This document shows positions 33,789-44,039 of a stretch of 64,000 nt of DNA, one piece after another. How positions within the stretch are numbered: position 1 is the first letter of the stretch; the number at the start of each line of letters is the position of its first letter. Source of the stretch: an uncultured Kiloniellaceae bacterium (GTDB lineage: Bacteria > Pseudomonadota > Alphaproteobacteria > Kiloniellales > Kiloniellaceae); NCBI GenBank assembly GCA_947493695.1, contig CANLSF010000006.1, positions 248,001 through 312,000 of the forward strand. The letters run 5' to 3'. The notes under the pieces were generated by a model. The model was given only the letters and a program-made list of their open reading frames with translations. It made no database searches and had not been told where the DNA came from. A program made the position numbers and the translations under genes.

Positions 33789-35066
33789 ATGAAGGTTCTT
33801 GTAATCGGTTCGGGCGGGCGTGAACACGCACTTTGTTGGTCTCTTGCAAAGTCACCTCTATGCAGCGAACTCTTCTGCGCACCGGGCAATGCGGGCATTG
33901 CATCGGTTGCGACCTGCGTCGCCATCGCGGCAGAAGACATAGAGGCTATCGCCAATTATTGTGGCGAAAACAAGATCGATTTCGTCGTTGTCGGTCCCGA
34001 AGGCCCGCTCGTCCTCGGACTGGTGGATCGCCTGACGGCGCTTGGCATCAAATCCTTTGGTCCTTCGGCAGCCGCCGCGGCCCTCGAAGGCTCCAAGGGC
34101 TTCATGAAAGACATCTGCGCCAAGTACAAGGTCCCGACCGCCGCCTATGGCCGTTTCACCGACGCAGACGCTGCAAAGACCTTCATCCGGCAACAGGGCG
34201 CGCCGATTGTCGTCAAGACCGACGGGCTTGCCGCGGGTAAAGGCGTCATCATTGCCGAGACGCTCGAAGATGCAGAACGAGCGGTCGATGCGGCCATGAC
34301 CGACGCGGTTTTCGGCGATGCCGGCGCGGAACTGGTGATTGAAGAATTCATGACCGGCGAGGAGGCGAGTTTCTTCGTCCTTACCGACGGCGTGTCGGCC
34401 CTCTCCCTTCTCTCTGCGCAGGATCACAAGCGGGTCGGTGACGGCGATACCGGGCTGAACACCGGCGGCATGGGTGCCTATTCCCCGGCACCGGTCCTGA
34501 CGGCCGAGTTGGAGAAACAGGTTCTGGCCGAGATCGTGCAACCGACCATCGACGGCATGCGCGCGGAAGGCAAAGCCTATACCGGTGTTCTCTATGCCGG
34601 ATTGATGCTTACGCCAGAAGGACCGAAGCTGATCGAATACAACGTGCGTTTCGGTGATCCGGAATGCCAGGTGCTGATGATGCTTCTCAAGTCAGACATC
34701 CTGCCTGCCTTGATGGCGACCTACGATGCAACACTCGACCAGATTGACCTGGAGTGGCATGACGAAGCTGCGCTGACCGTCGTCATGGCCGCGAAGGGCT
34801 ATCCGGGCAGCTATAGCAAAGGCGACGAGATCGGTGGTTTAGCGGAGGCCGGAACCGAAGAGGGCGTGGTCGTCTTCCATGCAGGCACAAAAGCCGGTGA
34901 CGGCGATCAGGTTCTGGCGAACGGGGGCAGAGTTCTCAATGTCACCGCAAAGGCCCCCGCAATCGCCGAAGCTCAGACGCGTGCCTACGCCGCGGTTGAT
35001 CGTCTCGACTGGCCCGGTGGCTTTTGCCGTCGGGATATCGGGTGGCGGGCAATTCAACGGGGCTGA
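33789..35066 (+). CDS. purD: phosphoribosylamine-glycine ligase
   Basis: Second step of purine synthesis: ATP-dependent joining of phosphoribosylamine and glycine. At 425 residues it is full length. The start [20 protein letters not shown] is diagnostic. The ATP-grasp region follows ([58 protein letters not shown] with the metal-binding NVRFGDPE). It ends [19 protein letters not shown]. The stop codon is the first part of a 15-base tandem repeat. Confidence 0.97.
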
Positions 35067-35093
35067 GCAAGAGTCTGCTGAGTAAGAGTCTAG
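35064..35093. repeat. 15-base tandem duplication at the purD stop
   Basis: TGAGCAAGAGTCTGC (35064-35078) is followed directly by TGAGTAAGAGTCTAG (35079-35093), matching at 13 of 15 positions. The first copy begins with the purD stop codon. It is likely a slippage duplication in the gap before the convergent hydrolase-cupin gene. Confidence 0.6.
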
Positions 35094-35105
35094 GATCTTA
35101 AAAGC

Positions 35106-36383
35106 TTACGCCTTGGCTGCCGCTAACTTGCCTCGGATGGAATTCGCCCAGACCACATGTCCCGGCTCTTTTCCGCCCAGGATCGACATCATCAGGGCTT
35201 CTTCTCCGGCGATGTTTTCGAAGGCACGCATAACACCGGACGGACAGCAGATGCCGTCGAGATAGCCTAACTCAACGCTGTTCTCTCCCTCGTCACCCCA
35301 GGTGACTTTCCAGCGGCCCGTCAGGCAAACGAAGGTTTCCTCGCTGTCGTGAGAGTGGAGCGCGGCGCCGTTGCCGGGCGCGGCCCGAATGAAGTCGATG
35401 TGGTAATTTTCAGCCTGCGCGACCTGCGAACTCAGATTCTCGTCCGACGTGCCGCCCCCCAGCGCCCCCATCAGAACGCGATTGTGACCCGGCACGACCG
35501 CATCAATGAAAGCGACATCCGAATGTGGAAGCTCGTTGAACCGGAACACCCGCCCCAGCATGTCTTCAGGTGTCATGGTCCGCGTCTTGCCGAAATAGGC
35601 ACCGACCTGATCATCAAATTCGATGTCGCGTTCCAGTCTCATCACAGGTTCCTCATTATCCAAATCGTTCGTGAATTCCAGGAGACATCCGGCCAGACCG
35701 CCGGCATTGGTGATCATCATTTCATGACCGCCCTGTAGAGCCTTGACCCGCCAGGCTTCATCCGTGCGGAAACGCTCTATGAAGCTTTGATAGGGTTGCG
35801 GCTGGCGGTCACTGGCGTAGAGGTACATCCGCGGACCGGCAAACCTGGACGTGGAAAGCCTCACTTCGTCGGTAAAAGCCTTGAAAGGCTGATCTGTAAA
35901 GCGCCGGGACAGCGTTTCAGCCATTTCGGGATCCCCGATACCGAGCTGCACAGGATCAGGCGGCGGAATGCGCCAGCCGTCACCGCCCTCTTTTGCCGCC
36001 GCCAGAAACCTCTCGCGCGCCGCGGGCGGTATGAGTTCCAGAAGCGCTTGGCCGTCCTGCGGCACAACGGCCTCGATATACACAACGGCAGTCAATCGCT
36101 CTGGACAGCGATCTTCGATTGCCCGGCCGATCATGCCGGCATAGGAGTGCAGGACCAGAACGACGTTCCGAAGCTCCTCGCCGATCAGCAGACTTTCAAT
36201 ATCGGCAATGTGATCCGAGAGCCCGGTTGTCCTTGTAAGATCGCCCGCACGCTCCCCCATACCAGTCAAAGTCGGTGCGAGAACCCTGCATCCTTCCGCC
36301 TCCAAAATGCGCGCGACCTCGGTCCAGCACCAGCCGCCATGCCAGGCGCCGTGCACCAGGACGAAAGTATGCCGGGACGTCAT
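35106..36383 (-). CDS. alpha/beta-hydrolase fused to a cupin domain
   Basis: A 425-residue two-domain protein. Residues about 1-240 are an alpha/beta-hydrolase: FVLVHGAWHGGWCWTEV (oxyanion region), LVLHSYAGMIGRAI (nucleophile Ser in HSYAG), an acid in YLYASDRQPQ and the catalytic His in LQGGHEMM. This resembles the pyrethroid-hydrolase/hydroxynitrile-lyase-like branch. From about residue 300 a cupin follows: GNGAALHSHDSEETFVCLTG gives H, H and E of motif 1, while motif 2 reads CCPSGVMRAFEN with Arg where the fourth ligand His is usual. I use the ATG at 36383, which overlaps the MetE-like stop by one base (TGATG). It lies at the end of the ABC-transporter unit, so it probably acts on the imported compound. 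The substrate is unknown. Confidence 0.85.
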   Translation of the reverse strand: MTSRHTFVLVHGAWHGGWCWTEVARILEAEGCRVLAPTLTGMGERAGDLTRTTGLSDHIADIESLLIGEELRNVVLVLHSYAGMIGRAIEDRCPERLTAVVYIEAVVPQDGQALLELIPPAARERFLAAAKEGGDGWRIPPPDPVQLGIGDPEMAETLSRRFTDQPFKAFTDEVRLSTSRFAGPRMYLYASDRQPQPYQSFIERFRTDEAWRVKALQGGHEMMITNAGGLAGCLLEFTNDLDNEEPVMRLERDIEFDDQVGAYFGKTRTMTPEDMLGRVFRFNELPHSDVAFIDAVVPGHNRVLMGALGGGTSDENLSSQVAQAENYHIDFIRAAPGNGAALHSHDSEETFVCLTGRWKVTWGDEGENSVELGYLDGICCPSGVMRAFENIAGEEALMMSILGGKEPGHVVWANSIRGKLAAAKA

Positions 36384-37534
36384 CACCGGACAGCCCAAAG
36401 ACGCTCTGACGCTATCTCGGCACCGCGCGCAAGCGCACCAAGCTTTGCAAATGCAACATCCGCATCGACAAGACCGTCACCGGCAAAGGTCGAGAAGCCG
36501 CAGTCGGATCCGGCGATGACCCGCTCCCGGCCTACGATATTCGCAAAGGTTTCGATCCTCTGCGCGACCAGTTCCGGATGCTCGATAAAGTTGGAGGTCG
36601 AATCGATACAGCCCGGAGCGAGAATTTTGTCCTCCGGCAGTTTCACATCCCGAAACACCGTCCATTCATGAGCATGCCGAGGGTTCGAGGCCTCAAACAA
36701 CAAAGTCTGAGGCCGCGCCTTCAGGACGATATGAATGATCTTTTCAAGCGGGATGTCCTTGTGATGCGGTCCCTCGTAATTCCCCCAGCAGAGGTGCATG
36801 CGCAGGCGCTCCAGCGGCAATCCATCAAGCGCATAATTCAGCGCCTCGATCTGGGCCTCGGCGTGTTTCAGGAACCCTGCGTCGTCTTCGTCCTGGAAGA
36901 TCGTATGGCGTCCCATGGCCAAATCCGGACAATCGATCTGCAGCATGAAGCCTGCCTCGACAATAGCGGCATATTCCTCACGCATCGCGGTTGCCAGAGC
37001 CTCGAGATACCGGCTGTGGTCGCCGTAAAAGCGATCCGGCTGAAACACCGCAATCACACCTGGCGACGCCGCGTTCATAAAGGCACCGGTTGGACGTTGG
37101 GCCTTCACTGCGGCGGAAAAAGCCGCGAGATCAGCCTGCAACGGCGCCCGGTCCTTGATGGCGATTTCACCTGTGCAACAGGGTCGGGGCAAGGGAAGCG
37201 CATTCTTCCGCCATTCACCCAGCATCTTCGCGAAGCCGGGAAACTCCGCAAGGTCAGCGCCCGGAATGCGTTCACTGTCGCCTGAGAAGCCCGTAAGCCG
37301 GTCCTTGACGTAATTGGCGTAACCGATTTTGGAGAACTCACCGTCCGAGACGATGTCCACGCCAGCCTGCATCTGCCGGGTCACGATCGCGTCCACAGCC
37401 TTTGCAACGGTCTGATCGAAATCCTCGAGCGAGGCCATTTCGCCCCGCTCCTTGGCGAGCAACAGATCGCAGACATGGTCGGGCCTGGGCAGTGAGCCGA
37501 CATGTGTGGTGAGAATTCTATCGCTGCTGCGCAT
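36383..37534 (-). CDS. MetE C-terminal-like zinc enzyme (cobalamin-independent methionine synthase II family)
   Basis: A 383-residue protein equivalent to the C-terminal half of MetE, a TIM barrel that activates thiols at zinc. The start RILTTHVGSLPRPDHVCDLL and VDIVSDGEFSKIGYANYV are typical. The zinc ligands appear conserved: HLCWGNYEGPH (H and C), LLFEASNPRHAHEW (E) and VIAGSDCGFSTFAG (C). The N-terminal folate-binding half of true MetE is absent. Members of this family include the epoxyalkane:coenzyme M transferase type, so a thiol transfer or demethylation on an unknown substrate is plausible. A methionine synthase role is less likely. GAGGGAGGGC precedes the ATG, and the gene follows the ABC permease by 12 bases. 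Confidence 0.85.
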   Translation of the reverse strand: MRSSDRILTTHVGSLPRPDHVCDLLLAKERGEMASLEDFDQTVAKAVDAIVTRQMQAGVDIVSDGEFSKIGYANYVKDRLTGFSGDSERIPGADLAEFPGFAKMLGEWRKNALPLPRPCCTGEIAIKDRAPLQADLAAFSAAVKAQRPTGAFMNAASPGVIAVFQPDRFYGDHSRYLEALATAMREEYAAIVEAGFMLQIDCPDLAMGRHTIFQDEDDAGFLKHAEAQIEALNYALDGLPLERLRMHLCWGNYEGPHHKDIPLEKIIHIVLKARPQTLLFEASNPRHAHEWTVFRDVKLPEDKILAPGCIDSTSNFIEHPELVAQRIETFANIVGRERVIAGSDCGFSTFAGDGLVDADVAFAKLGALARGAEIASERLWAVR

Positions 37535-37546
37535 CTGTGCCCTCCC

Positions 37547-38380
37547 TCATCCTTTAACCGAGCCGGCGGTCAGGCCACTGATGATCTGGCGGGCTGCAAA
37601 GAAGGTGAAAAGAAGCGGCGGAATCACAATCAGTGTGCCCATCGCCATGATTCGTCCCCACTCCACGCCTGTATCCGTGATGAAGCCGGCGGCCCCGACC
37701 GGCAGCGTGCGGGAGTTCCGGCCGGTCAGCAGCAGCGCCAGGATGAACTCGTTCCAGGCAATGCGGAAAGTGAAGATCCCCGCGACCGCATAGCCCGACT
37801 TCATCATTGGGAAGAGGACCTGGAAAAAGACCTGCAGGGGCGAAGCGCCGTCAACGATGGCAGCCTCTTCCAGTTCAACCGGAATTTGCTTGTAAAAGCC
37901 GAACAGCAGCCAGATCGCGAAGGGCAGATTGAGCGCGGTATAGAAAAAGATCAGCACCACCAGATCCGCGTTCAGATTCAGGGTGACGACCATCGCAAAG
38001 GCGGGCACGGCCAGCACGGCGGGCGGCACCATACGCACCAGCAGGGTCGAGTTGGCGACGAAGCGCCGCCCCTTGAATTCAAGACGCGCCAGAGCGTAGG
38101 CGCAAAGACCGCCCAGGAAGAGCGTCAGGAATGTCGAGACTGTCGCGACGATGACCGAGTTGACGAAATAGCGATCAAACTTTCCACGCGTCAGGATGTA
38201 GTCGTAGTTCTCCATGGTGGGGAAAAAGAAGAACCACACCGGTTTGGCGTCGAAGATCACAACTTCGTTCTTGAAGGAGGTTGAAACCATCACCCAGATC
38301 GGCGTCAGGCAGATAATCGCAAGAATAATCAGACTTGCGTAATGCCCCCAGACCCGGGCGGGACTATCGATGCGCCTCAT
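37547..38380 (-). CDS. CUT1-type ABC transporter permease (MalG-like)
   Basis: A 277-residue inner-membrane permease with six helices. The EAA loop that docks the ATPase is EEAAIVDGASPLQVFFQVLFP. The N-terminal CLTPIWVMVSTSFKN and C-terminal FAARQIISGLTAGSVKG are typical of MalG/UgpE-type sugar permeases. It starts 12 bases after the stop of the MalF-like gene and is followed 12 bases later by the MetE-like gene, so all are one transcript. Confidence 0.93.
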   Translation of the reverse strand: MRRIDSPARVWGHYASLIILAIICLTPIWVMVSTSFKNEVVIFDAKPVWFFFFPTMENYDYILTRGKFDRYFVNSVIVATVSTFLTLFLGGLCAYALARLEFKGRRFVANSTLLVRMVPPAVLAVPAFAMVVTLNLNADLVVLIFFYTALNLPFAIWLLFGFYKQIPVELEEAAIVDGASPLQVFFQVLFPMMKSGYAVAGIFTFRIAWNEFILALLLTGRNSRTLPVGAAGFITDTGVEWGRIMAMGTLIVIPPLLFTFFAARQIISGLTAGSVKG

Positions 38381-38392
38381 AGGCTCAGACCT

Positions 38393-39313
38393 TCATATGT
38401 CGGACTTCTCCTTCATCGGATTACCGACGACGAGAATTCCAAGGCTTAGGAGGAAGACGATGGAGATCAACAGTACCGAGATCGCCGAGGCATAACCCAG
38501 TAGCTGTGCATCGAAAGCGCGGTTGTAGATGTGCAGCGAGAGCAATTCGGTCGCCCGACCCGGCCCACCGCCGGTCAGGATGTACATAACCTCCAGCGCC
38601 CGGAAGACATCGATCAGGCGCATCAGAAGCGCAATCAGCAGGATCGAGCGGATCATCGGCAGCTTCACCAGAAAGATCTGCTGCCACCAGTTGGCGCCAT
38701 CGATCCGGCTGGCTTCGAGCACCTCCGACGGCAAAGCCTGCAGGCCCGCAATCACGATGATGAAGATAAAGGGCGTCCACTGCCAGATGTCGGTGAAGAC
38801 GATGGCGAAGAACGCCAGCTCGGCATCGCCCAACCAGACCTGCGGTTCGATCCCGAGGTAGCCAAGATAGTAGTTGATCCACCCGACCCGGGCATCGAAG
38901 AGATAGCGCCAGATCAGACCGACAACGACAGGCGAAACCATCAATGGCAGTATAAAAATGGTTCGGAAAAGGCTGGCGCCCCGGATTGGTTTCTCCAACA
39001 GGAGCGCGAGCGAGACCCCGACGATCATCTCGATCAGGATGGTCCAGAAACCAAAGCGGAAAGTCACCCAGATCGACTCGCGAACATCCGGGTCACTGAA
39101 CATCCGGATGTAATTGTCGAAACCGACAAACTCTGCCTTCGCGAATTTCGTGCCGATTTTCCAGTCGTAGAAGCTGAGATAAAAGGCATCCGCGACGGGA
39201 TAGAGCAGCCCCGCGATCATCACAATCCCGGCGGGCAGGACGAAGAAATACGGCGTCAGCGTTCTGCCGCCCGTCTTCGCTTTTCCCGCCGTTATGAGCG
39301 TCTCTTCCGCCAC
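38393..39313 (-). CDS. CUT1-type ABC transporter permease (MalF-like)
   Basis: A permease with six helices. Its EAA loop reads EASRIDGANWWQQIFLVKLP, and TGGGPGRATELLSLHIYNRA is typical of UgpA/MalF proteins. I start it at GTG 39313 (MAEETLITAGKAKTGG, 306 residues), preceded by GCGGAGA at good spacing. The longest frame begins at TTG 39394, inside a strong stem-loop, and is unlikely. The partner MalG-like gene follows directly. Confidence 0.92.
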   Translation of the reverse strand: MAEETLITAGKAKTGGRTLTPYFFVLPAGIVMIAGLLYPVADAFYLSFYDWKIGTKFAKAEFVGFDNYIRMFSDPDVRESIWVTFRFGFWTILIEMIVGVSLALLLEKPIRGASLFRTIFILPLMVSPVVVGLIWRYLFDARVGWINYYLGYLGIEPQVWLGDAELAFFAIVFTDIWQWTPFIFIIVIAGLQALPSEVLEASRIDGANWWQQIFLVKLPMIRSILLIALLMRLIDVFRALEVMYILTGGGPGRATELLSLHIYNRAFDAQLLGYASAISVLLISIVFLLSLGILVVGNPMKEKSDI

Positions 39314-39363
39314 CGAAGTCTCCGCGTGCTTCTGTTTAGTCTCATTAGTCTCAGGTCTGAACA

Positions 39364-39397
39364 GGGTTGGCGCGGTGCGTGCGCGTCGCGCCAACCC
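39364..39397 (-). terminator. stem-loop between binding-protein and permease genes
   Basis: GGGTTGGCGCG (39364-39374) and CGCGCCAACCC (39387-39397) form a perfect 11-base stem with a 12-base loop. It lies between the binding-protein stop (39429) and the permease start (39313) and has no T-tract on the minus strand. This resembles the intercistronic hairpins that stabilise binding-protein message over permease message in other ABC operons. That role is inferred. Confidence 0.7.
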
Positions 39398-39428
39398 TTT
39401 CGGTCAGGTTCGGAAAAATCCCGACGGC

Positions 39429-40781
39429 TTACTTCCTGTAGTCGCTCCAGGCGTAGTAGCCTTCACGCGCCATGATCGCGCGCGCCTTTTCATTGGCTTC
39501 ATCCATAATCGGCTGAATAGGCCCGTCTGTGGTGATGACCTTGGTCAGCGCCTGGCCGAGCACGTCGATGTTGAGCTCGTTCCACTCGGGGATCAGCGGA
39601 CGCCAGTCGGGGTCGGCACAAGGCAGCTGCTCAGCGACCACCGGATACTCGGGAAACTGCTTCACGAACTCCGGGTGGTTAAGCGTTGAAAGCCGGATGG
39701 GATCTCCCCCCAGCTCAACCATGCGCTTATCACCGGCTTTCGAGGTCATGTACTGAACGAAGAGGAACGCTGCTTCCTTGTTCAGGGAGTTGGCGGGAAT
39801 GCCCATGGCAAAACCACCCGTCTCGGACCCGCAACGCGACCCGACCGGATGCAGCGCGAAGCCAACTTTGCCATCGACCTTCGAGAGCTTCGGATTTCGC
39901 GACATCGCGGCAATCTTCAGGCTATCGAGATACATCGCTGCATCGCCCTGCAGAAAAGCCGCAGACATCTCGGAGAATCCATAAGAGGGAATACCGGTGG
40001 GGCCGGTGTTGGAGACGGTCCGCAGAACCTCTGCCGCCTTCACGGCCTCCGGGCTGTTGATCACCGGATTCCATTCGTCGTCAAAGATCTTTCCGCCCAG
40101 TGGCGCAAGATGCAGCAACCAGGCCGCCGTCACCTGATGACCGGTTTTCCCGCGTGACGTCAGGGCGCCCATGCCCTTCTTTTCCTTGATCATCTTCGAG
40201 ACGGAGACCAGTTCGTCGTAGGTCTTCGGCGGTTCCAGTCCCAGTTCCTCGAAGACATCGGTGCGGTAGGCGAGGATCGAGGTCTCGGCGCCAAAAGGCA
40301 CCCCGTACAGCGCGCCCGATTTGCCGGGCATATACCCCTTGGTACCACCGACAATGCCGCCGTTCTGCAGGTAGGCATCGGCAATGTCGTCGATGTCATA
40401 CTGCGGATCGACCAGCGCGCCGTTGGTGAAAAACTGGCTCAGGGGCGTCAGCAGACCTTTTGAGACGTACTCGCCCTTCCACATCACGACCCAGGAGACG
40501 ATGTCGTATTCGCCTTCGTCCCTGGACATTTCGAGGATCTGCCGATCCCGCAGCTTGAGGTATTGCAAGGCATCGATTTCGACCTCGATGCCGGTTTCTT
40601 CGGTAAATTCCTCAACCAGAGTTTCGGCGGCCTTGAAGTGACTGAGCGCAGGCCAGCTCACGACAATAGTCGTTCCCTTGTACTTTTCATAAGGGTTCGC
40701 GAGCAGTGCACCGCTCATGGCCGTAAGGCCGACGGCTGCCGCGACACTCAAGGCTGCCGCTTTTCCAAACCACTGTTTCAT
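39429..40781 (-). CDS. ABC transporter sugar-type substrate-binding protein
   Basis: A 450-residue periplasmic solute-binding protein of the extracellular family 1 type. The signal peptide MKQWFGKAAALSVAAAVGL is likely cut near ALLA, with no lipobox cysteine. Typical blocks are VEEFTEETGIEVEIDALQY, PYGVPFGAETSILAYRTDVF-like and GDAAMYLDSLKIAAM. I start it at ATG 40781, where GGGAGGAAA precedes; the longer frame adds unrelated Arg-rich sequence. As the carrier-specific part of the importer it defines the substrate, which I cannot name. Acidic or sugar-like compounds fit the family. Confidence 0.93.
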   Translation of the reverse strand: MKQWFGKAAALSVAAAVGLTAMSGALLANPYEKYKGTTIVVSWPALSHFKAAETLVEEFTEETGIEVEIDALQYLKLRDRQILEMSRDEGEYDIVSWVVMWKGEYVSKGLLTPLSQFFTNGALVDPQYDIDDIADAYLQNGGIVGGTKGYMPGKSGALYGVPFGAETSILAYRTDVFEELGLEPPKTYDELVSVSKMIKEKKGMGALTSRGKTGHQVTAAWLLHLAPLGGKIFDDEWNPVINSPEAVKAAEVLRTVSNTGPTGIPSYGFSEMSAAFLQGDAAMYLDSLKIAAMSRNPKLSKVDGKVGFALHPVGSRCGSETGGFAMGIPANSLNKEAAFLFVQYMTSKAGDKRMVELGGDPIRLSTLNHPEFVKQFPEYPVVAEQLPCADPDWRPLIPEWNELNIDVLGQALTKVITTDGPIQPIMDEANEKARAIMAREGYYAWSDYRK

Positions 40782-40851
40782 TATTTTTCCTCCCATGACC
40801 CTGTTTATTCGACTGACGCAACAATGCCGGCTGGGCGACTGCACCCGCCGG

Positions 40852-41943
40852 CTACAGTGCCTGACCGCTCTCGCGGTCAAACAGGTAAAGTCTCTCCGTA
40901 TCGAAGTAGTAGGTGCCGGATTCCATCGGTGCGGCGTCTGGACCGACCTCGACCGCCGCAGTGAGGTTTTTCCCACCGACAGAGGCCGCAATGAACTGGC
41001 TGGAGCCGATGTACTCTGCGACATCGACAGCGAGTTCGATCGGCGCGAAAGCTCCGTTGCCCCGGTCCGCCGCAGAAAAGTGCTCCGGCCGGAGACCGAG
41101 AACGATGTTGGATTTTTTCGCGGTATCAGCCCGCTCTTGCAGGCGACCCGGCACCGGAAGCTCGAAACCCTGTCCCTTCACGTAGAGCGCGCCGTTGTTG
41201 CGCGTCAGTTCCGCGTCCATCAGGTTCATGGAGGGCGAGCCGATAAAACCGGCCACGAAAAGATTTTCCGGCGCGGTGTAAACCTCGCGCGGGCTGCCGA
41301 TCTGCTGAATAACCCCGTCTTTCATGATCACGATCCGGTCGGCCATGGTCATGGCCTCGATCTGATCGTGCGTCACATAGACCATGGTCCGTTCGAGTTT
41401 CTTGTGCAGGATGGCCAGCTCGGTGCGCATGGTCGCGCGCAGTTTGGCATCCAGGTTCGAAAGTGGCTCATCGAAGAGAAAGCAATAGGCATCGCGCACA
41501 ATCGAACGGCCCATGGCCACACGTTGGCGTTGCCCGCCAGATAGATCCTTGGGCTTGCGATCCAGGTAAGGCGTCAGTTCCAGCATTTCTGCGGCGCGCT
41601 GAACGCGCTCAGCGATCTCCGCCTTGGGCACCCTCGCCAGACGGAGCGCAAATGACATGTTGCCCGCAACGTCCATATGCGGGTAAAGCGCATAGGACTG
41701 GAACACCATCGCGATGTCGCGGGCTTTAGGCTGGGCGTAGGTAACGTCCTTGCCGGCAATCGATATCTCGCCGGATGTGACCATTTCGAGTCCGGCAATC
41801 ATCCGCAGGGTGGTCGACTTGCCGCAGCCCGAGGGGCCAACAATTACGACGAACTCACCTTCATAGATCTCCAGGTCGAGTTTAGGAATTATGACGACGT
41901 CGCCATAGGCTTTCACGACATCTCTCAGCACAACGCCAGACAT
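40852..41943 (-). CDS. ugpC: sugar ABC transporter ATP-binding protein (UgpC/MalK type)
   Basis: A 363-residue ATPase of the MalK/UgpC class that powers CUT1 importers. Walker A is GPSGCGKST, the signature LSGGQRQRVAMGRSIVRD, and Walker B CFLFDEPLSNLDAKLR, with the switch His in VYVTHDQIEAMTMADR. A C-terminal OB-fold regulatory domain begins near residue 235 (VAGFIGSPSMNLMDAEL). It is the first gene of the transporter unit and is divergent from the LacI-type regulator. The symbol reflects the family and does not imply glycerol-phosphate specificity. Confidence 0.93.
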   Translation of the reverse strand: MSGVVLRDVVKAYGDVVIIPKLDLEIYEGEFVVIVGPSGCGKSTTLRMIAGLEMVTSGEISIAGKDVTYAQPKARDIAMVFQSYALYPHMDVAGNMSFALRLARVPKAEIAERVQRAAEMLELTPYLDRKPKDLSGGQRQRVAMGRSIVRDAYCFLFDEPLSNLDAKLRATMRTELAILHKKLERTMVYVTHDQIEAMTMADRIVIMKDGVIQQIGSPREVYTAPENLFVAGFIGSPSMNLMDAELTRNNGALYVKGQGFELPVPGRLQERADTAKKSNIVLGLRPEHFSAADRGNGAFAPIELAVDVAEYIGSSQFIAASVGGKNLTAAVEVGPDAAPMESGTYYFDTERLYLFDRESGQAL

Positions 41944-42067
41944 CTACGCCGTCTCCCTCCCACCGTTTCATGCTGCTGCCTGTCCGGTTCGTTTTATGAC
42001 GCCAAACACAACGCCAGAACCGGTATCACGACTGCAGTTCGCCGCTTTCCAATTGATAGGATGCGGC

Positions 42068-42096
42068 TTTATTCTGTTACCGATAACACTATTCAA
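42068..42096 (-). promoter_or_regulatory. predicted promoter of the ABC-MetE-like-hydrolase unit
   Basis: On the minus strand TTGAAT (42091-42096) and AATAAA (42068-42073) are 17 bases apart. The LacI-type operator 42075-42088 lies entirely in the spacer, so a bound regulator would block RNA polymerase. Confidence 0.45.
42075..42088. promoter_or_regulatory. LacI/GntR-type operator between divergent regulator and transporter genes
   Basis: TGTTACCGATAACA has perfect TGTTA/TAACA arms and a near-palindromic centre. It matches the operator style of the LacI-family gluconate regulator GntR of E. coli (TGTTACCGGTAACA type) at 13 of 14 positions. The adjacent regulator resembles GntR, which supports the match. 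Confidence 0.65.
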
Positions 42097-42111
42097 GATC
42101 GAGAATCAACG

Positions 42112-42117
42112 TATAAT
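42112..42117 (+). promoter_or_regulatory. predicted -10 box of the LacI-family regulator gene
   Basis: A perfect TATAAT on the plus strand lies 34 bases before the regulator ATG. The matching -35 would fall at about 42089, at the edge of the operator, suggesting autoregulation. The -35 itself is poor. Confidence 0.4.
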
Positions 42118-42150
42118 GTCATACGCTAACATTTTCAGCCGGCGACTTTC

Positions 42151-43197
42151 ATGAGCGAGAAAAAGACAGTGAAACGACGGACGCGCCGGTCACAGGGCGC
42201 AGGCACTCTGAGCGAAGTCGCGCAAGCAGCCCAGGTCAGTGAGATGACTGTTTCGCGGGTTTTGCGCCGAAAAGACAAGGTCGCAAGCAAAACCCGGGAC
42301 CACGTGCTCAAAGTGATCAAGGACCTGGGTTACGTCCCAAATCGCCTTGCTGGTGCCCTGGCCTCTTCCACCTCGAACCAGTTGGCGGTGATCATTCCTT
42401 CCCTGCGCAACATCGTCTTCCCGGAAGTGCTCTCCGGGATCGCGGACCGCCTGGATGAAGCCGGGTATCAGGCGGTGATCGGAATCTCCGAATACGATTT
42501 GCAGCGCGAAGCCTCACTGGTTGAAACGATGATGTCCTGGCGCCCGGCGGGGATCATCGTGACCAACACACAACACAGCGAAGAAGCCGCCAGGATCCTG
42601 CGTGTCACCAAAAGTCCGGTCGTTGAAATCATGGACCTGACAGAAGATCCGATCGACATGTGCGTGGGCCTCGATCATCACAAGGCCGGGGCGGAAATGG
42701 CGCGGCATCTTGTGACCAAAGGATACCGCAACATCGGTTACCTCGGTTGTGATCTAATCACCGATGCCGCCGCGGGCAAACGCTATAGCGGGTTCCGAGA
42801 CACCTTGCAGGAAGCCGGCCTGTCGGTCGCTGTCAGTCTGAGTATCGACGAACCTTCCGGTATCGGGCTTGGGCGTAACTCCATGCCTGAACTTCTCGCA
42901 AAAGTCCCGGCAGGACAAAAAATCGATGCCGTCTACTTTTCCAATGACGCGGTTGCCGTCGGCGCCCAGATGTATTGCATGGCCGAGGGCATCCGGACGC
43001 CCGAAGACCTGGCACTCGCCGGCTTTAGTGGCCTGGAAGTTGGTCAGGCCATGCCGGTTCCGCTCACGACAATCCGCTCGAAACGCTTTCATGTTGGCTG
43101 GTTGAGCGCGGATTACATCGTGCGCAGATTACAGGGCGAAGATCCTCCGCGGGTCACCGATGCGGGCTTCGAGTTGATCGAAGGCGCGACGGCTTAA
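42151..43197 (+). CDS. LacI family transcriptional regulator (GntR-like)
   Basis: A 348-residue regulator. The N-terminal helix-turn-helix is TLSEVAQAAQVSEMTVSRVL with the hinge YVPNRLAGALASSTSNQLAV, followed by a periplasmic-binding-like effector domain (LPSLRN-type start IIPSLRNIVFPEVLSGIADR; LALAGFSGLEVGQAMPVPLT near the C-terminus). The blocks VVEIMDLTEDPIDMCVG and GLEVGQAM parallel the gluconate repressor GntR of E. coli, so an aldonate or similar effector is possible. It is divergent from the transporter genes and should bind the operator at 42075-42088. Confidence 0.93.
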   Translation: MSEKKTVKRRTRRSQGAGTLSEVAQAAQVSEMTVSRVLRRKDKVASKTRDHVLKVIKDLGYVPNRLAGALASSTSNQLAVIIPSLRNIVFPEVLSGIADRLDEAGYQAVIGISEYDLQREASLVETMMSWRPAGIIVTNTQHSEEAARILRVTKSPVVEIMDLTEDPIDMCVGLDHHKAGAEMARHLVTKGYRNIGYLGCDLITDAAAGKRYSGFRDTLQEAGLSVAVSLSIDEPSGIGLGRNSMPELLAKVPAGQKIDAVYFSNDAVAVGAQMYCMAEGIRTPEDLALAGFSGLEVGQAMPVPLTTIRSKRFHVGWLSADYIVRRLQGEDPPRVTDAGFELIEGATA

Positions 43198-43204
43198 GAA
43201 GCGG

Positions 43205-43834
43205 TCATTCCTGATTGCCTGGATGCTCAGGATCTTTTCCCCAGATCGCCTGATAGGTGTCTTTGCGCAGGCCCAGCCGTTCGAAAACGACGAACAAACC
43301 CCAGATCACAAGCACAACAAGAACAACAAGAGCGAAGGCTGTCTCGGCCCAGCCAAGCAGCGACATACCGGTCGCGATTGCAGCAAAGGCAAAAGCGACC
43401 GCAAGATAACCACCGCATTTGTGCCAGGCCTCAAACAGCAAACGCCGACCGGTCATATCATAGTGGTCGCCGCGCCAGGTCTGCGCGTCCTTCGGGTCCA
43501 CGTTGCGATCCGTGGGGCCGCCTTTGCTGCCCCGAAGCCAGCCACTGAGGATCTGAGCGCATGCCATCAGAACCGCACCGCCACCAAGAAGTCCGTGAAC
43601 CGAGAGTTCCAGGCCGCCGCTCTCAGAAATTGCGATATAGGCCGCGATCAGCATCAAAACCACGGCGCTGTATTGCGTGATTTGATGCAGTCGCCACCAG
43701 ACCTGACTGTCCAGTTTCCGGGGCCAATCCTGTCCGGGGAGCACCTTAAAAAACCGGGCTGCAAGAATGCCGACCGGAATCAGAATCAGCCATGCAAAGA
43801 GCATGATGAGCGCGTGAATGACAAAGGGGTCCAC
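43205..43834 (-). CDS. cytochrome b561 domain membrane protein
   Basis: A 209-residue membrane protein with five hydrophobic segments. It matches the eukaryote-like cytochrome b561 domain: IHALIMLFAWLILIPVGILAAR, RLHQITQYSAVVLMLIAAY, SVHGLLGGGAVLMACAQIL followed by SGWLRGSKGGPTD, and WHKCGGYLAVAFAFAAI. Four His in these helices fit two heme b ligand pairs. I start it at GTG 43834 behind GGAG; the longer frame adds 53 Arg-rich residues that look non-coding. It converges with the LacI regulator and is not obviously part of that system. The electron partners are unknown. Confidence 0.8.
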   Translation of the reverse strand: MDPFVIHALIMLFAWLILIPVGILAARFFKVLPGQDWPRKLDSQVWWRLHQITQYSAVVLMLIAAYIAISESGGLELSVHGLLGGGAVLMACAQILSGWLRGSKGGPTDRNVDPKDAQTWRGDHYDMTGRRLLFEAWHKCGGYLAVAFAFAAIATGMSLLGWAETAFALVVLVVLVIWGLFVVFERLGLRKDTYQAIWGKDPEHPGNQE

Positions 43835-44039
43835 AGGCCGGCTCCGGGAACATCGACGCAGATAGTGCTGCTGGCATAACCGACCTTGGGGCCGCTTGCC
43901 AAGCCTGTTCAACATCTCTGCGAATCTTCCCGGGCGTGAATTCGAGTGCCTGGGCAGCACGCCAGACCTGCTAAAAACGAAACCTCTAAGCACGCAGAGG
44001 CTTCGAGCAGAAATTCAGATTAACTTATTGATTTTTCAA

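Follow-up and report, generated by a model that had tools for sequence, protein, structure and literature searches.

We analysed a 64,000-nt stretch of the genome of an uncultured marine Kiloniellaceae bacterium (G000:C6:248001-312000 of a 6.46-Mb genome; hereafter the window), in which an operon joins a CUT1-type importer to a MetE-like zinc protein and a hydrolase-cupin fusion. Six genes on the minus strand face a divergently oriented gene for a LacI regulator of the GntR subfamily (Table 1). All seven genes are real: the open reading frames (ORFs) are open and their families agree by Pfam and NCBIfam, as the first-pass annotation of this DNA had described, and its spacings of 12, 12 and -1 bases at the 3' end were confirmed from the ORF coordinates. 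At the -1 spacing, the TGA stop of the MetE-like gene (36385-36383) overlaps the hydrolase ATG (36383-36381); an alternative hydrolase start, TTG at 36398, lines up with an ATG in Pelagibius sp. Alg239-R121. We found 2 promoter-like and 7 terminator-like matches, which is no excess over the shuffle means of 3.1 and 8.3 and speaks neither for nor against internal promoters. No RNA family matched at an E value of 0.1 within 35000-43300. The UgpC/MalK-type ATPase, two BPD_transp_1 permeases and SBP_bac_1 binding protein are the components also found in the CUT1 sugar/polyol importers represented by 5iai and 4rya; no unusual feature was seen, and the importer operon itself is ordinary. These family matches support the earlier proposal of a sugar- or aldonate-type uptake operon under a GntR-subfamily LacI.

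Table 1. Genes and sites of the operon region (window coordinates).
Feature	Position	Strand	Remarks
LacI-family regulator, GntR/IdnR subfamily	42151..43197	+	best NCBIfam GntR model 306.5 bits, cut-off 400
Probable operator for the local LacI, conserved 19-mer AATGTTAGCGTATGACATT	42115..42133	-	identical in five genomes
GntR-type operator TGTTACCGATAACA, palindrome	42075..42088	.	recurs in this genome at the gluconate/idonate-type cluster
CUT1 importer ATPase, UgpC/MalK type	40852..41943	-	NF008653 460.9 bits, curated cut-off 432
Solute-binding protein	39429..40781	-	SBP_bac_1 match
Importer permease, MalF/UgpA type	38393..39394	-	BPD_transp_1; in-frame GTG at 39313 perhaps the true start
Importer permease, MalG/UgpE type	37547..38380	-	BPD_transp_1 match
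MetE-like single-barrel zinc protein, predicted homocysteine S-methyltransferase	36383..37534	-	Meth_synt_2; zinc and homocysteine residues
Hydrolase-cupin fusion gene, whole	35106-36398	-	start ATG 36383 or TTG 36398
Alpha/beta hydrolase half of the fusion	35664..36398	-	Abhydrolase_6; S85 and H225 kept
Cupin half of the fusion	35106..35663	-	Cupin_2 27.1 bits, just under cut-off 27.2; HxHx3E kept

The MetE-like protein (383 aa) has Meth_synt_2 as its sole Pfam family, and the N-terminal folate domain is absent. It was aligned with E. coli MetE, with a MesD-like protein encoded beside MesX, and with the EtnE-type protein of Nocardioides JS614, EtnE being the epoxyalkane:coenzyme M transferase of this strain. 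The zinc ligands reported by the first-pass annotation are intact (H247, C249, E281 and C345), which upholds its description of a zinc-thiol enzyme, and S14, E66 and D201 correspond to the homocysteine residues S433, E484 and D599 of the E. coli enzyme, so that both residue sets of Mes-type proteins are present. Across 72 rows, restricted to ORFs of 331-469 aa and counting the window twice, the zinc residues H641, C643, E665 and C726 (E. coli numbering) are kept in 72, 72, 71 and 72 and the homocysteine residues in 72, 71 and 72, with a single exception each at E665 and E484. The one EtnE-type sequence compared has N, K and D at the latter positions. Since S/E/D are kept here and two of the three are replaced in the coenzyme-M transferase, homocysteine methylation is preferred over thiol conjugation. 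Judged from these residues, the protein more probably moves methyl groups from a methylated substrate to homocysteine than takes part in an ester, lactone or thiol-conjugation route; where an ester, lactone, methyl or thiol-reactive group had been considered, the homocysteine pocket favours methyl. In the tree the window row falls inside a clade of 7 (support 100/100). Most rows from the full cluster described below are found in the clade next to it, which has 36 rows (83/99, drawn open); L132 and L139 stand apart.

The genomic surroundings of the family were also considered. Elsewhere in the window's genome a B12-type methionine synthase domain matches in an open frame of 1189 aa (MetH-type), the match running across one stop that is probably the gene's end; with this frame present, a house-keeping role for the MetE-like protein is less needed. 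Three sphingomonad plasmids carry the MetE-like gene no more than about 10 kb away from metF and from a gene of the aminomethyltransferase family: metF, purU, folD and an aminomethyltransferase-family gene are nearby on the Croceicoccus and Novosphingobium plasmids, metF and a glycine-cleavage-T-type gene on the Sphingobium plasmid. These neighbours fit with methyl handling. On sphingomonad plasmids (L096, L097, L101) small NTF2-like and IclR genes accompany the MetE-like gene as well.

Conservation of the operon was followed by tblastn of the window proteins. In Pelagibius sp. Alg239-R121 (L062) and G322 (L110), the nearest relative that has the operon, the two being treated as one organism and counted once, the order LacI / ATPase, binding protein, two permeases, MetE-like, hydrolase::cupin is as in the window, with 86-94% identity to the window proteins and 67% for the hydrolase half. 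As this gene order recurs in relatives, the grouping is hardly due to chance. Of the Geminicoccaceae operon L063 the part from the binding protein onward is kept, hydrolase and cupin are separate, and a GntR/FCD-type regulator lies upstream; in L064 the cupin gene is right behind the MetE-like gene, and its short contig holds no hydrolase. Another genus of the family lacks the hydrolase in L114 and L115 and both hydrolase and MetE-like gene in L177. The first-pass annotation had called for a search for the conserved gene set, which is thus found together in Pelagibius sp. Alg239-R121 and reduced in Geminicoccaceae and the other genus, but is not a fixed set.

Seven loci with a CUT1-type importer (window, L110, L063, L064, L114, L115, L177) carry the cupin in seven, the MetE-like gene in six and the hydrolase in three cases. 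Five loci with a TTT carboxylate importer (L112, L116, L117, L176 and L178, the last running out at the contig edge) carry them in five, three and four cases, respectively; TctA, TctB, TctC and a sulfatase were Pfam-confirmed in L116, the other TTT loci being read from similar ORFs. Of the 61 genomes of the order, two have the fused hydrolase-cupin gene. At 1e-30 or better the fusion protein matched in 31 of 289 class genomes, its own included, and each match listed for the remaining 30 spans one half of the fusion only. Altogether, the hydrolase is optional and the cupin is the constant partner of the MetE-like protein. As a separate observation, the TTT importer, a LacI gene and an arylsulfatase-like gene stand beside the cupin genes in L116 (1909-8671), L176 and L178, and in L178 the cupin is downstream of the sulfatase-like gene on the same strand.

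Metal cupins usually hold their metal by three His and one Glu, contributed by motif 1 (HxHx3-4E) and a His of motif 2. In the window cupin motif 1 is kept and the motif-2 His is changed to Arg. H103, H105, E109 and R146 were invariant in 12 of 12 aligned sequences, and Arg occupied the motif-2 position in all 34 cupin rows of a larger set of 42, the other 8 being hydrolases or shadow ORFs. Both HxHx3E and the motif-2 Arg are common to the window cupin and the bicupins of the large cluster. This sequence pattern makes a 2-His-1-Glu metal site with Arg replacing the last His probable. Profile comparison with the PDB gave weak relatives only (E 7e-4 and worse: vicilin, oxalate decarboxylase, quercetinase, gentisate dioxygenase). 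For the hydrolase half, the closest solved relatives are the alpha/beta hydrolase 6tj2, hydroxynitrile lyases, SABP2 and methylketone synthase. All 13 sequences of the alignment share the nucleophile S85 and catalytic H225, as in the EstC/hydroxynitrile lyase group; the catalytic residues claimed as intact therefore are so for these two (numbered from the TTG). The hydrolase evolves faster than the neighbouring genes and is often missing. The idea of MetE-like protein plus hydrolase as one conserved pair was dropped, the PcaD-like hydrolase of L111 and that of the window looking like different subfamilies.

MetE-like family members were taken from a contig scan (32 loci), from 52 of 289 class genomes (E up to 1e-60) and from plasmid records, of whose 109 matches at 1e-5, some of them distant, eight were used. 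Gene order was inspected in 80 loci picked mainly by similarity, three of which lack a called MetE-like gene. Because the cupin group of the automatic gene calls also contained fused genes, shadow ORFs and hydrolases, cupin counts rest on the cupin signature. In 35 of 77 loci this signature occurs no more than 5 kb from the MetE-like gene; it was found nowhere farther out across 0.52 Mb of the same loci, and cupin and MetE-like genes stand together in alpha-, beta- and gammaproteobacteria. Many loci have one cluster of CUT1, SnoaL-like, HisD-like, SDR, LacI, double SnoaL, bicupin, MetE-like and hydrolase genes, often with RraA; its genes are annotated in Ruegeria and Octadecabacter and were Pfam-checked in L111. 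Several betaproteobacterial loci add TonB-type-receptor-like ORFs, a reading from the ORFs, and G322 has the full cluster (L111) in addition to the short operon (L110). Our searches of open-licence literature yielded no description of this cluster and nothing that explains the MetE-like/cupin pair.

Within the set L094, L095, L100, L111 and L134-L144 many loci, not all, have the large cluster, and versions of it occur in genomes of 1.4-1.6 Mb (L132, L139). In the Pelagibius relative, hydantoinase/oxoprolinase A and B genes follow immediately after the full cluster (L111:3157-6929).

The local LacI scores under every cut-off of the NCBIfam GntR equivalogs (306.5/400, 246.7/500 and 199.9/433 bits), and with the best GntR model below its cut-off no ligand is assigned; the cut-off is a hard test, since the LacI of the gluconate-type cluster described below fails it too (290.9 of 400). 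The earlier annotation had seen a matching operator, and the palindrome TGTTACCGATAACA is indeed present, but the conserved site of the local LacI is probably the 19-mer AATGTTAGCGTATGACATT. The palindrome gave one exact match, and its 3 matches with up to 3 mismatches were equalled in 20 of 100 shuffles; it occurs at the equivalent place in L110. All 19 bases of AATGTTAGCGTATGACATT are identical in the window, G322, G337, G340 and G335, at LacI identities down to about 60%, and the 19-mer is unique in its own genome within 3 mismatches and overlaps, by eye, a TATAAT hexamer. From these sequence features, the 19-mer rather than the palindrome is probably the local LacI's own operator. Gluconate as ligand of this LacI was not accepted, as its own site is unlike the GntR operator and no cut-off is reached. 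Convergent with the LacI gene, the window encodes a cytochrome b561-like membrane protein (43205-43993, minus strand), just above the Pfam cut-off; such a neighbour is also present in L110, L114 and L115 and, by eye, in L177.

The operator pattern TGTTANCGNTAACA has five exact sites in the same genome, all intergenic before catabolic operons (p about 2e-5 at an assumed intergenic share of 12%): one at this operon, two in L161, one at the CUT2-type importer L160 and one in the RraA/PhyH region by the CUT1-type operon L162. With one mismatch, 11 sites compare with 7 for the reversed pattern, so weak sites of this kind mean little. L161 (G000:C2:805000-824500) holds genes for a LacI, SMP30-like, IdnD-like, 2-hydroxyacid-dehydrogenase-like and IdnO-like proteins, GntK and a CUT2-type importer. 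GntK passes its curated cut-off (180.8 vs 113.75 bits), and IdnD and IdnO are closest to L-idonate and gluconate 5-dehydrogenase models, yet below the cut-offs; RraA was confirmed by Pfam, and the remaining regulon genes were read from ORFs. With its two operator sites L161 is probably the rest of the regulon, including the 'missing' sugar enzymes. The first-pass annotation had argued from the lack of a kinase or dehydrogenase for a non-standard route, an argument that falls with the dehydrogenase and gluconokinase genes under a like operator elsewhere in the genome.

Six relatives gave 6, 4, 3, 5, 0 and 0 exact TGTTANCGNTAACA matches against 0 for the control, with none anywhere in the genomes of G337 and G340. 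In G322 the sites lie at the orthologous gluconate/idonate, CUT2, RraA/PhyH and window-type places, plus one further site. Without any match to the MetE-like or hydrolase-cupin proteins, G323 and G324 retain the gluconate/idonate sites, G323 also the RraA/PhyH site, and in G335 a site lies between idnO- and idnD-like genes adjoining its CUT1 operon. Since the sites occupy orthologous places in relatives, including genomes without a MetE-like gene, TGTTANCGNTAACA belongs mainly to the gluconate/idonate regulon. Dual control of the window operon through the 19-mer and the GntR-type site would be the simplest reading. Like known GntR/IdnR regulons, the system has a LacI of this subfamily, an operator of this type and IdnD/IdnO/GntK-type genes in the probable regulon; it differs in a LacI under the NCBIfam cut-offs, the extra 19-bp site and the added CUT1 importer and MetE-like/cupin pair. 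The GntR-type operator of L162 (4734-8677, G000:C8) lies amid a CUT1-type operon, an RraA gene and a pair of PhyH-like ORFs, an undescribed-looking catabolic set of its own, whose RraA/PhyH part is conserved in G322 and G323.

The nearest solved relatives of the binding protein are 5iai and 4rya (labelled sorbitol); for binding proteins from three such systems 5iai is the nearest and 4rya also ranks high. Beside the operon, idnO- and idnD-like genes occur in L114 (63% and 56% identical to those of L161), in L177 (67% and 57%) and, by ORF order, probably in L115. Together with the carboxylate-type importer that serves the same enzymes elsewhere, these relatives and neighbours point towards a polyol or sugar acid; that the substrate carries a methyl group is suggested by the MetE-like enzyme. 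Our best guess from the sequences is a sugar acid or polyol bearing an O-methyl group. As candidates we weighed mycosporine, cyclitol and 4-O-methylglucuronate; the sequence decides for none of them, and the literature gave no lead. DesC/DesD of syringate catabolism was dropped as a MetE-like pair, the nature of DesD not being stated in the excerpt of PMC8091115.

We tentatively favour, at somewhat short of an even chance, an accessory uptake-and-demethylation operon of the gluconate/idonate-type regulon. Genes, operator sites, recurrent pairing and active-site residues are read from the sequence; methyl transfer, the role of the cupin, the substrate and the flow into the idonate/gluconate route we infer from them. 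The CUT1 importer would take in a sugar-like compound, a polyol, aldonate or uronate that is probably O-methylated. The MetE-like enzyme would bind homocysteine as a zinc thiolate and move onto it, yielding methionine, a methyl group from the imported compound or from the cupin's product of that compound, which would need neither folate nor B12. The cupin may be an oxygenase or isomerase that readies the methyl donor, as MesX serves MesD, and the hydrolase would open an ester or lactone as an optional step. The freed polyol acid would then pass to the IdnD-, IdnO- and GntK-type enzymes, whose genes lie in other parts of the regulon. As a whole, the interpretation given in the first-pass annotation is partly supported.

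Several observations weigh against this demethylation reading. The cupin signature is missing from 42 of the 77 MetE-like loci, and L176, L177 and L178 have the cupin without a MetE-like gene. Among 398 genomes of the phylum, the cupin model matched in 32 (25 strong) and the MetE-like protein in 26. Both are present in 16 against 2.1 expected, an excess that speaks for the reading, but 13 of the 16 come from one family, so that the co-occurrences are not independent events; 9 of the 25 strong-cupin genomes have no MetE-like match at 1e-60. In Phaeobacter inhibens, deletion of the 'Mes-like' gene PGA1_c27430 left the dimethylsulfoniopropionate (DMSP)-dependent shortening of the lag phase in place (excerpt of PMC12366255), but DMSP is one donor only. 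The same excerpt prints a primer upstream of this gene; its by-eye translation contains AFIDAHT, a stretch shared with the associated cupins, and PGA1_c27430 is therefore probably part of the same module; it differs from the window in probably lying in the larger HisD/SDR/SnoaL cluster of Roseobacters. Finally, the window protein is 26% identical to the EtnE-type and 28% to the MesD-like protein, the motif H.CWGNY.G is common to the MetE-like family and the EtnE-type protein, and a fork with support 100/71 and very long branches joins the two.

The shared motif and the fork speak for a different chemistry, which we consider unlikely: the MetE-like protein would resemble the epoxyalkane:coenzyme M transferase, activating glutathione or another thiol so that it attacks an electrophilic carbon in the compound taken up. 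Family and zinc ligands are indeed those of the EtnE-type protein. At the thiol site, however, the window protein has S14 and E66, the homocysteine Ser and Glu that the family keeps in 71-72 of 72 rows, where N and K stand in the EtnE-type protein, and the neighbouring alkene monooxygenase genes of the EtnE locus have no counterpart among the operon proteins.

An oxygen-dependent auxiliary methionine synthase like MesD/MesX is quite unlikely in our estimate. The cupin would stand in for MesX, the donor would come from central metabolism, and the place in the operon would reflect regulation, not catabolism. The residue pattern is the same as in the MesD-like protein, MesD being the one Mes family covered by our comparison; shared as well are the single MetE catalytic barrel, the zinc tetrad and the separate partner protein. 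MesD requires its partner and oxygen (excerpt of PMC7857596), and the cupin is the commonest enzyme partner of the MetE-like gene. Membership in MesD is not indicated: close kinship is lacking at 28% identity, the partner is a cupin and not the MesX that adjoins the compared MesD-like protein, and the gene sits in a sugar-uptake operon. None of the seven proteins of the operon matched MesX (PF08908), a search that did not extend to the rest of the genome. Against an auxiliary synthase stand the frequent location of the MetE-like family within catabolic clusters with importers, LacI and dehydrogenases, and the MetH-type open frame. That the hydrolase-cupin performs the catabolism, by ester or lactone opening followed by sugar-acid isomerisation or oxidation, with the MetE-like gene as a side enzyme, is improbable, for although the cupin is present in 7/7 CUT1-type and 5/5 TTT-type loci against 6/7 and 3/5 for the MetE-like gene, and the L116 sulfatase suggests other ester groups, 4 of the 7 CUT1-type loci lack a hydrolase and the cupin/MetE-like pairing spans alpha-, beta- and gammaproteobacteria.

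Four core methionine synthase families, MesA-MesD, are less than 30% identical to each other, and the role of such MetE homologs in aerobic marine bacteria has been called questionable (excerpts of PMC7857596 and PMC12478193). Beyond the demethylation operon itself, a wider and more doubtful reading is that the MetE-like proteins form a fifth core family with its own cupin, which demethylates imported O-methylated carbohydrates and needs neither folate nor B12 to do so; the full cluster would then be a widespread undescribed pathway of marine and freshwater bacteria, and the window its short version within the gluconate/idonate regulon. Donors may include, for example, methylated sugar acids, cyclitols and mycosporine-type compounds. 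The existing mes-like mutant of Phaeobacter inhibens (excerpt of PMC12366255) makes this hypothesis soon testable. If true, carbohydrate catabolism would be joined directly to methionine supply in several proteobacterial classes, and there would be concrete genes both for the function of many 'cobalamin-independent methionine synthase II family' proteins in aerobic bacteria and for how bacteria demethylate O-methylated carbohydrates.

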